From IMG/VR virus record IMGVR_UViG_3300043640_000123, positions 1-37,955 of that record: DNA of 37,955 bases; one strand, 5' to 3'. The notes under the pieces were generated by a model that was not told the DNA's origin, searched no databases, and was given only the letters and a program-made list of their open reading frames with translations. Position 1 is the first letter of the stretch, and the number at the start of each line of letters is the position of its first letter. A program made the translations under genes and the position numbers. The DNA is from a virus. Below, in pieces: positions 4,588 to 9,154 of the stretch.

Positions 4588-4608
4588 GAGGGCCGCACAG
4601 GCCCGCAC

Positions 4609-4633
4609 AGGCCCCGCTCCGGCGGGGCCTTTT
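4609..4633 (+). terminator. Intrinsic terminator
   Basis: AGGCCCCGC-TCCG-GCGGGGCCT followed by TTT: 9-bp perfect stem with a stable UUCG-type tetraloop position. It ends the cassette that finishes at 4587 and is a near copy of the hairpin at 1334-1359. Confidence 0.75.
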
Positions 4634-4965
4634 CCATGTCGCCAGAGACGAGCACAGGGCCGCACAGGATCCCCGATGCGGCTCCCTGACCGGACCTCGT
4701 CCCCCTCGTCCCAAGATCGGGACGAGCCGGGACGAACACCTAGAACCAAATAACCTATCCAGCCTCGTCCCTCGTCCCGCTCGTCCCCCCCTCTTTATAG
4801 GGGGACGAAGGGACGAGAGAGGAGGATGGTTGGTTACCTGGGGAAATGCAAAACCCCACAGGCCAGGCCGTAGGGGTCCGTCCCGATCATGGAAATGCCG
4901 GTAAGCGCGTCGGAGACCTCGTCCCCGTCCCGTCCTCGTCCCTGATCTTGACCAGAAGTCCCGGG

Positions 4966-7476: not shown

Positions 7477-7524
7477 CCAATTCAGCCGGATAGCTTGACA
7501 GGGGGCCAAGCCCCCTGCTTAGAT
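7475..7524 (+). promoter_or_regulatory. Cassette promoter with upstream box and variant operator element
   Basis: The upstream box GACCAATTCAGCCGGATAGC precedes TTGACA (7495-7500); 18 bp; TTAGAT (7519-7524). The element is TTGAC-agggg-GCCAA (7495-7509), one base off the usual half-site; GGGGGC/GCCCCC flank it as a small inverted repeat. Confidence 0.6.
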
Positions 7525-7564: not shown

Positions 7565-7828
7565 ATGGCCCGCCGCCTCAAGGCCCGTTATGTCGATCTC
7601 GTCTATGTCACCCCGGTTGTCACGGAGCGCGGCATGGCCCTGTCGGCCCGGGACGAGGACGGTCGGGACTTCTACGTCCTGGCCTCCCCCAAGATGTTGA
7701 TCTGCCTGGCCAAGAGCCTGATCCGGATGACGGTCCACTCCTGGTTCCGCCAGAAGTACAACGCGGACACGAGCCGGTTCCGGGACATCCCGGAGACCCT
7801 GTCTGACCCCACCGTTACCGCCGCGTGA
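7565..7828 (+). CDS. Hypothetical 87-aa protein
   Basis: ATG 7565 behind CACGGAGGACACC. N-terminal strands (VDLVYVTPVVTERGMALSARDEDGRDFYVLAS) are followed by a helical part (MLICLAKSLIRMTVHSWF). Soluble, small, no recognised family. It is coupled by GTGA overlap to the next gene and is the first gene of the cassette that ends with the TOPRIM protein. Confidence 0.65.
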   Translation: MARRLKARYVDLVYVTPVVTERGMALSARDEDGRDFYVLASPKMLICLAKSLIRMTVHSWFRQKYNADTSRFRDIPETLSDPTVTAA

Positions 7829-7953
7829 GTAAGCCCCGTTGCTCCCGTTGCGGGGTGCTCACGGTCCCCTCCCCGGGGGCCGTGTGCGGTCCGTGTAGAC
7901 AACAGGACAAGGCGGCGGCGGACAGGCTCCTCAAGGATCTGTTCAAGCCGTAG
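7825..7953 (+). CDS. 42-aa zinc-ribbon microprotein
   Basis: GTG start in a GTGA overlap. The product has CSRC and CGPC separated by 16 residues, a classical four-Cys ribbon, then a basic amphipathic helix (QDKAAADRLLKDLFK). It resembles the zinc-ribbon plus helix proteins that assist larger nucleic-acid enzymes; whether it works with the TOPRIM protein 60 bp downstream is a guess from position. Confidence 0.65.
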   Translation: MSKPRCSRCGVLTVPSPGAVCGPCRQQDKAAADRLLKDLFKP

Positions 7954-7969
7954 AGACCAGTACAGCCCC

Positions 7970-7993
7970 GCCGGGGGCCAGCCAGCCCCCGGC
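7970..7993 (+). terminator. GC-rich hairpin before the TOPRIM gene
   Basis: GCCGGGGGC-CAGCCA-GCCCCCGGC, 9-bp stem. It lies between 7953 and ATG 8016 and may attenuate the longer gene. Confidence 0.45.
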
Positions 7994-8015
7994 CCTCTCT
8001 CCCCCAGGAGTCGTA

Positions 8016-8933
8016 ATGCCGTTCATCGCGTACAAGGACATCAATTTCCGTCCGGCCTCCCTGGCCGTGATCGAACACGCGAACGAGATCATCAATGCCT
8101 ACGCGGCCCAGGGCCTCACCCTGACCCTCCGTCAGCTCTACTACCAGTTCGTCAGCCGGGACCTGATCCCCAACAACCAGCGGGAGTACAAGAAACTGGG
8201 GGACGTGATCGGGAACGCACGCCAGGCGGGCATGATCGACTGGTACGCGATCGTCGATCGTTCCCGCTCCCTCCGGGGGACCTCGTTCTGGCAGAGCCCG
8301 GACCAGATCATCTCCGCCGCCGCCAACGGCTACCGGACGGACCGCTGGGATCTCTCCCAGGCCTACCACGTGGAGGTCTGGGTGGAGAAAGAGGCCTTGG
8401 TGGACGTGATCGGACGCGCGGCCCAGCGCTGGGACCTGAACTACTTTGCGTGCAAGGGGTACACGAGTGAGAGCGCCATGTGGTCCGCCGCGCGGCGGTT
8501 GATCCGCAAGGAGGACGCGGACAAGGAAACGATCATCCTGCATCTTGGCGACCATGACCCCTCCGGGATCGACATGACCCGGGACATTCAGGACCGGCTC
8601 CGGGGGTTCGGCTCCACGGCCACCGTGACCCGGCTGGCACTGAACATGGACCAGGTGGACGAGTACAACCCGCCACCCAACCCGGCCAAGATGACGGACT
8701 CCCGCGCGGAGGGCTACGTGGACGCGTACGGGACGGAGTCCTGGGAGCTGGACGCGCTGGACCCGGCCCTCCTGGACACGGTCATCCGGGACGCGGTGGA
8801 GCCGTACGTGGACATGCCCGCGTGGCGCGCGGCCACGGCGGATTGGGAGCTGGAGCTGGAGGCGCTCCGCAAGATTGAGCGCAACTGGGACGCGGTCAAG
8901 GCCTATGTGGAGGACCTTGATGAGGACGCGTAA
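8016..8933 (+). CDS. Spo11/TopoVI-A-like protein with TOPRIM domain (possible Mini-A type)
   Basis: 305 residues, ATG 8016 behind CAGGAGTCGTA. The N-terminal part (about 20-85) reads as a winged helix with TLRQLYYQF (Y42, Y43), placed like the RxxYY catalytic-tyrosine motif of the 5Y-CAP domain in Spo11 and topoisomerase VI A. A TOPRIM domain follows: VWVEKEAL (E124), then LHLGDHDPSG (D179, D181), the Glu and DxD metal ligands. The C-terminus (from about 240) is acidic and helical. Known relatives include TopoVI-A, Spo11, JetD of Wadjet, and the mobile-element Mini-A proteins lacking a B subunit. No ATPase (GHKL) partner is seen in the window. A DNA-cleaving or DNA-binding role is likely; the exact activity is inferred. 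It is much the largest early gene here. Confidence 0.8.
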   Translation: MPFIAYKDINFRPASLAVIEHANEIINAYAAQGLTLTLRQLYYQFVSRDLIPNNQREYKKLGDVIGNARQAGMIDWYAIVDRSRSLRGTSFWQSPDQIISAAANGYRTDRWDLSQAYHVEVWVEKEALVDVIGRAAQRWDLNYFACKGYTSESAMWSAARRLIRKEDADKETIILHLGDHDPSGIDMTRDIQDRLRGFGSTATVTRLALNMDQVDEYNPPPNPAKMTDSRAEGYVDAYGTESWELDALDPALLDTVIRDAVEPYVDMPAWRAATADWELELEALRKIERNWDAVKAYVEDLDEDA

Positions 8934-8957
8934 GGCGCTACGTGGGGGGTCGCGTAG

Positions 8958-9059
8958 ATGCCGGAAATGTGGCTGGCCTATCCTGCATGGGCCCCTGGGT
9001 CCTACGTGCGGTTGCACGTGGTGACACGTTCTGTCCAAGATCCTCCCACCCGTTGGTAA
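8958..9059 (+). CDS. Possible 33-aa ORF (uncertain)
   Basis: ATG 8958 has GGGGGGT 7-8 bases upstream and encodes a 33-residue Trp/Pro-rich peptide (MPEMWLAYPAWAP...) with a basic middle. No homology or coupling supports it, and a perfect IR ACGTGC-GGTT-GCACGT (9004-9019) lies inside. It may be non-coding. Confidence 0.2.
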   Translation: MPEMWLAYPAWAPGSYVRLHVVTRSVQDPPTRW

Positions 9060-9087
9060 AGGATCGCGGAGAGATCGCTTGAATGAG

Positions 9088-9116
9088 TTGACCCCGGGGC
9101 AACCCGGGGTCACACT
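9088..9116 (+). promoter_or_regulatory. Cassette promoter with TTGAC-N5-GGCAA element
   Basis: TTGACC (9088-9093), 17 bp, CACACT (9111-9116). TTGAC-cccgg-GGCAA spans 9088-9102, and CCCCGGGG...CCCGGGG-type symmetry surrounds it. It lacks the upstream ACCAATCTGG box. Confidence 0.6.
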
Positions 9117-9154
9117 CATGTGGAGGCGAGATCAACGGCAGACAGGAGGAGCCC

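Follow-up and report, generated by a model that had tools for sequence, protein, structure and literature searches.

A stand-alone Mini-A protein resembling the topoisomerase VI A subunit in the early region of a phage, with a probable part in phage DNA replication or recombination

Introduction

Spo11 and the topoisomerase VI A subunit use a tyrosine to cut the two strands of DNA. Topoisomerase VI is an A2B2 enzyme whose B subunit carries a GHKL ATPase. Its archaeal A subunit (1d3y, 9o0g) has a winged-helix and TOPRIM fold with catalytic residues that are also found in the Mini-A proteins studied here, but the Mini-A records examined are without a B subunit, and the Mini-A sequence is too distant for Pfam TP6A_N, a feature of the TopoVI A subunit. 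Meiotic SPO11 has a catalytic tyrosine and metal-binding acids equivalent to those of Mini-A, and its dimers cut DNA without partners (PMC11922746). Unlike Mini-A, SPO11 is eukaryotic, and in vivo it works together with TOP6BL and further proteins. Topoisomerase VIII, like Mini-A, is found on mobile elements and has an A-like core of type IIB, but it carries an ATPase part, mostly in one chain, whereas the protein studied here has 305 residues and no HATPase_c domain. JetD/MksG of Wadjet shares the CAP and TOPRIM architecture and cleaves DNA in a metal-dependent manner; it works with the JetABC SMC proteins and has no catalytic tyrosine in its CAP domain (PMC10586767).

Closest of all is the Mini-A family itself. 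It was named in Takahashi et al. 2020; our definition of it rests on reviews, which describe truncated Top6A homologues of archaeal viruses and phages of unknown function and report no activity for them. A protein of Pseudomonas phage NP1 is drawn as an example in a review (PMC7614492).

Here we analysed a stretch of viral DNA of 37,955 nucleotides (the window; IMG/VR record IMGVR_UViG_3300043640_000123). An earlier note had read one of its genes as encoding a stand-alone TopoVI-A/Spo11-like protein, suggested Mini-A as its kind and called its role open. We found that the product is a member of Mini-A, with which it has in common a length of about 300 residues, the motif set, the lack of a B subunit and the phage or plasmid setting. 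Because this family was named before, the gene itself is not a discovery, and the openness of its role agrees with what the reviews say of the established family.

Results

The Mini-A open reading frame starts with ATG and encodes 305 residues plus a stop codon, with a GC3 of 0.91 and a strongly coding codon composition; the start, length and motif numbering given for it earlier were all correct (Table 1). A profile search matched residues 5-299 to PHROG 6247 'DNA topoisomerase' (E=6.1e-109), a match that chance does not explain. Pfam Toprim_2 gave a weak match under its gathering cut-off (E=0.0027), and the NCBIfam and PADLOC models gave none. A longer open reading frame on the opposite strand (7815-9119, 434 residues) was rejected as a high-GC shadow with no support of its own; such antisense frames are also present at other Mini-A loci.

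Table 1. Features of the Mini-A gene and its cassette (window coordinates)
Feature	Coordinates	Strand	Basis
TTGAC-N4-GGGCAAG copy, 1 mismatch, 70 nt ahead of the first start codon of the cassette	7495..7510	+	repeat scan
87-aa gene, first of the cassette	7565..7828	+	no PHROG match
42-aa zinc-ribbon-like microprotein, two CxxC pairs	7825..7953	+	ORF list
Mini-A gene, stand-alone TopoVI-A/Spo11-like protein, 305 aa	8016..8933	+	ORF, PHROG, conservation, model
RQLYYQ (39-44), winged-helix (5Y-CAP) domain	8130..8147	+	R39 and Y43 invariant
Catalytic tyrosine Y43 codon	8142-8144	+	invariant in relatives
VEKEAL (123-128), first TOPRIM acid E124 at 8385-8387	8382..8399	+	E124 invariant
LGDHDPSG (177-184), TOPRIM D179/D181, predicted metal ligands	8544..8567	+	D179 and D181 invariant
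PPPNPAKMTD, family signature past the TOPRIM core	8670..8699	+	K225 and D228 invariant

Five residues, R39, Y43, E124, D179 and D181, were invariant in an alignment of 23 diverse members, drawn from phages with many different hosts, from plasmids of bacteria and from a single archaeal plasmid, with identities down to 25%. The same five were invariant in 51 closer members, and Y42 was nearly so. Distant members carry H, F or W in place of Y42 but always keep Y43, which narrows the catalytic tyrosine to Y43. By motif order and fold, Y43, E124, D179 and D181 correspond to Y138, E224, D277 and D279 of mouse SPO11. Together with the PHROG match, this conservation bears out the earlier reading that RQLYYQ, VEKEAL and LGDHDPSG stand in TopoVI-A/Spo11 order.

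An AlphaFold2 model of the single chain, built from 51 sequences, had a mean pLDDT of 83.6 and a pTM of 0.72, with the loop 182-185 beside D181 below 50 in pLDDT. Under E=0.001 it had just two PDB matches (E=1.2e-4, about 300 columns, and 1.6e-4; TM 0.49), both of them chains of Methanosarcina mazei topoisomerase VI-A in its DNA-cleavage state; neither JetD nor OLD came up at significance in the PDB search, and nothing informative over the whole length was obtained from the viral structure library. The structure comparison proposed earlier points to TopoVI-A as the only significant match in the PDB. At the profile level, the sole PDB match of the family was TopoVI-A 1d3y (E=0.044), in which GDHDPSG aligned over the DGDP motif and the PNPAK..D motif over HPLKEQD ('LPTHPLKEQD'). 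Archaeal TopoVI-A sequences carry TLRELYYISE at the place of TLRQLYYQFV in the Mini-A family. When the family was compared profile to profile with 17 sequences of archaeal TopoVI-A, the scores were weak (E about 0.02-0.03), since both alignments are narrow. The two motifs fell into register in separate profile-profile runs, which do not constitute independent proof. Pfam TP6A_N matched none of 21 Mini-A records, NP1 included, and all four archaeal controls. On the model, Mini-A is predicted to be a winged helix with the catalytic tyrosine followed by a TOPRIM domain with the E...DxD acids.

Using tblastn we found that the NP1 protein (gp49) is 45% identical to the window protein over 92% coverage. 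Matches were detected in 73 phage records, 67 of them with a query coverage of 80% or more, and under a more permissive limit in 57 plasmid records; a protein of the archaeal plasmid P-7H_11, annotated 'Topo Mini-A', was recovered at 26% identity. Direct megablast of the region against phages gave no match. An alignment-guided scan recovered at least 579 relatives among at least 599 pattern matches in IMG/VR and 216 in the bacterial and archaeal genomes sampled. In the tree the window protein groups with actinobacterial and metagenomic members, near Actinomadura and Nonomuraea (support 88).

We searched Mini-A-carrying records for the missing partner subunit. The GHKL ATPase domain HATPase_c was found in 0 of 25 records and the TopoVI-B transducer Topo-VIb_trans in 0 of 22, with positive controls in both searches, as expected from the claim that no B subunit is visible. 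The result carries weight for those phage and plasmid records that are complete, and for them a topoisomerase VI with its B-subunit gene elsewhere was rejected; the window probably covers only part of its genome. The relationship to NP1 and P-7H_11, the fold and the absence of a B subunit together support the stand-alone, Mini-A reading.

The genes around Mini-A were then compared among relatives. A replication or recombination gene lies within 6 kb at 50 of 152 non-redundant loci, a lower bound from a survey with few query families that found nothing at about two thirds of the loci, and a structural gene at 2 of 152, for which the query set was smaller and less sensitive. Most of the replication and recombination hits are on the same strand as Mini-A. 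Recurring neighbours confirmed by Pfam are SNF2 helicase, DUF2800/PD-(D/E)XK, Enc34 SSB, PolA and YqaJ. In NP1 a Sak4 RecA-like gene immediately follows Mini-A, with ligase, Cas4-type exonuclease, helicase and primase near, and other named phages have a DNA polymerase, helicase, exonuclease or thymidylate synthase in the vicinity. Sak/Sak4 proteins are required for replication in the staphylococcal phages tested (PMC5499656). Integrases occur near 27 loci, indicating that many Mini-A loci are prophages. In the annotation of small Mini-A plasmids, of 8.8 and 15 kb, no recombination module is recognised.

In the window, by comparison with the Sak4, ligase and exonuclease genes of NP1, Mini-A instead follows the 87-aa gene and the zinc-ribbon microprotein, as the last of the three genes of the cassette. 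The microprotein had been noted before, and we find it as described; its GTG start overlaps the stop of the 87-aa gene, and it was assigned to no individual family. Mini-A is the largest of the recognised genes of the plus-strand early region, again in agreement with the first reading. IMG/VR yielded no relatives of the 87-aa gene and no close relatives of the terminase of this phage. Among otherwise unassigned early genes, 383-1084 matches PHROG 20744 'hydrolase' (a YdjM-type membrane protein) and 3962-4441 matches the membrane protein PHROG 2470.

The element TTGAC-N4-GGGCAAG, an imperfect palindrome, has 12 plus-strand copies in the window at no more than 1 mismatch (301, 1044, 1404, 1432, 2776, 4986, 6508, 7495, 9088, 9361, 35712 and 37172), against a shuffled mean of 0.03. 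Ten copies lie within the first 9.4 kb; the distance to the next gene start is 66-82 nt for nine of them and 38 nt for the tenth. When the element is read as a -35 box, CATAAT, CACTAT or CAGTAT follows 17 nt later at several copies. Judged by sequence, these copies are probably early promoters with an embedded operator or regulator site. A 48-nt near-repeat with GC-rich hairpin sequence (1320-1367 and 4593-4640) is possibly a repeated terminator that closes early cassettes.

Terminal repeats are missing from the contig, which is probably incomplete. No replication gene was recognised in the window, and no recombination gene was recognised near Mini-A; the role of Mini-A in this phage is therefore approached through its relatives. 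The structural genes, on the minus strand, resemble those of Gordonia and Rhodococcus phages, and the tree position near Actinomadura and Nonomuraea makes an actinobacterial host likely.

Discussion

We favour, as reasonably probable, the reading that Mini-A acts as a homodimer, depends on metal, uses Y43 to cleave DNA and has its function in the replication or recombination of the phage. We infer that the active sites would be hybrid, each pairing Y43 from one subunit with the metal site (E124/D179/D181) of its partner. Both DNA strands would be cut, leaving Mini-A covalently attached to the 5' ends, and no ATPase subunit would be needed. Such an A-only enzyme is chemically plausible, because mouse SPO11, using equivalent residues, makes metal-dependent, tyrosine-linked breaks without partners (PMC11922746). 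Mini-A most likely acts at the replication and recombination stage, where it would introduce transient breaks or nicks into replicating phage DNA. These would be resealed, relieving topology, or be passed to exonuclease, annealing and SSB functions for recombination-dependent replication. The lack of a recognised recombination module on the small plasmids, and of a recognised replication or recombination gene close to Mini-A in the window, speaks against this role. A tentative extension, to which we give distinctly less credence, is that Mini-A does for phages what SPO11 does in meiosis: it would break phage DNA in a programmed, tyrosine-linked manner, the PD-(D/E)XK exonuclease encoded by the phage would resect the ends, and a RecA-like protein of the Sak4 type would take them over, so that recombination-dependent replication and mosaicism of the genome begin.

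An alternative is that Mini-A is mainly a topoisomerase-like relaxase, making reversible breaks that relieve supercoils or unlink phage or plasmid DNA during replication and no productive double-strand breaks. The catalytic set of Mini-A is that of TopoVI-A, SPO11 alone can reseal nicks and relax plasmids (PMC11922746), a role in plasmid maintenance has been proposed in a review, and some of the plasmids with Mini-A are small and have few further genes that are recognised. We nevertheless regard this as rather unlikely, since the Mini-A records examined contain no ATPase or transducer to power strand passage. Bacterial hosts, moreover, already have gyrase and usually topo IV as well.

The neighbourhood in relatives bears on another proposal, that Mini-A is a weapon against competing DNA, whether the host chromosome, a superinfecting phage or a plasmid. 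Some TopoVI-A relatives, JetD/MksG, are defence nucleases (PMC10123090), and the early region around the gene is made up of small accessory genes; but PADLOC gives no match, the recognised neighbours are replication and recombination genes, and Mini-A is kept in many unrelated phage lineages, all of which make this improbable. We hold it very improbable that Mini-A, as a TOPRIM nuclease of the JetD/OLD type, hydrolyses DNA with the help of metal and without a tyrosyl intermediate. The conserved TOPRIM acids and the Toprim_2 match below its cut-off would fit such a nuclease, but a fold search that yields only TopoVI-A at significance and the invariance of Y43 in its R39 context, where JetD has no catalytic tyrosine (PMC10586767), speak against it. 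The JetD-like alternative raised by the earlier note is thus disfavoured, as it is by the lack of a PADLOC match.

For the preferred reading, cleavage through Y43 in the service of replication or recombination, the recurring helicase, exonuclease, Sak4, SSB and PolA genes supply a concrete hypothesis. The family is spread over hundreds of phages, prophages and plasmids, and its broad spread in IMG/VR and in bacterial and archaeal genomes, together with the strict catalytic conservation, indicates that very many mobile elements gain from retaining a type IIB enzyme with an A subunit only. Because SPO11 cuts alone in vitro, an ATPase-free role of such enzymes can be tested in simple phage systems.

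Several relatives deserve separate mention. A divergent group in 42 Streptomyces plasmid records (L029 5848-6771 and L031 6037-6870 among them), about 25-31% identical to the window protein, is annotated as hypothetical only; its two aligned members keep the Y, E, D and D residues and have lost K125. A Methanimicrococcus MAG (L188) carries a Mini-A that groups with Firmicutes and Bacteroidota members, and the MAG, in contrast to most of its relatives, has no TP6A_N match; possible explanations are transfer by a prophage, an incomplete MAG or mis-binning. One relative, L105, has an in-frame TAA within Mini-A; a recoded genome was considered and rejected, as TAG read as Gln does not account for TAA. 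In two Bacteroidales phages an SMC/RecN-like ATPase gene lies a few kilobases from Mini-A (L023 4059-5504, L024 3368-4813), an arrangement reminiscent of SMC-nuclease pairs. In one of them, Parabacteroides phage PDS1 (L024 7627-8513), Mini-A appears to be divided between two genes that overlap, one annotated 'DNA topoisomerase' and the other 'DNA primase', which suggests a frameshift.
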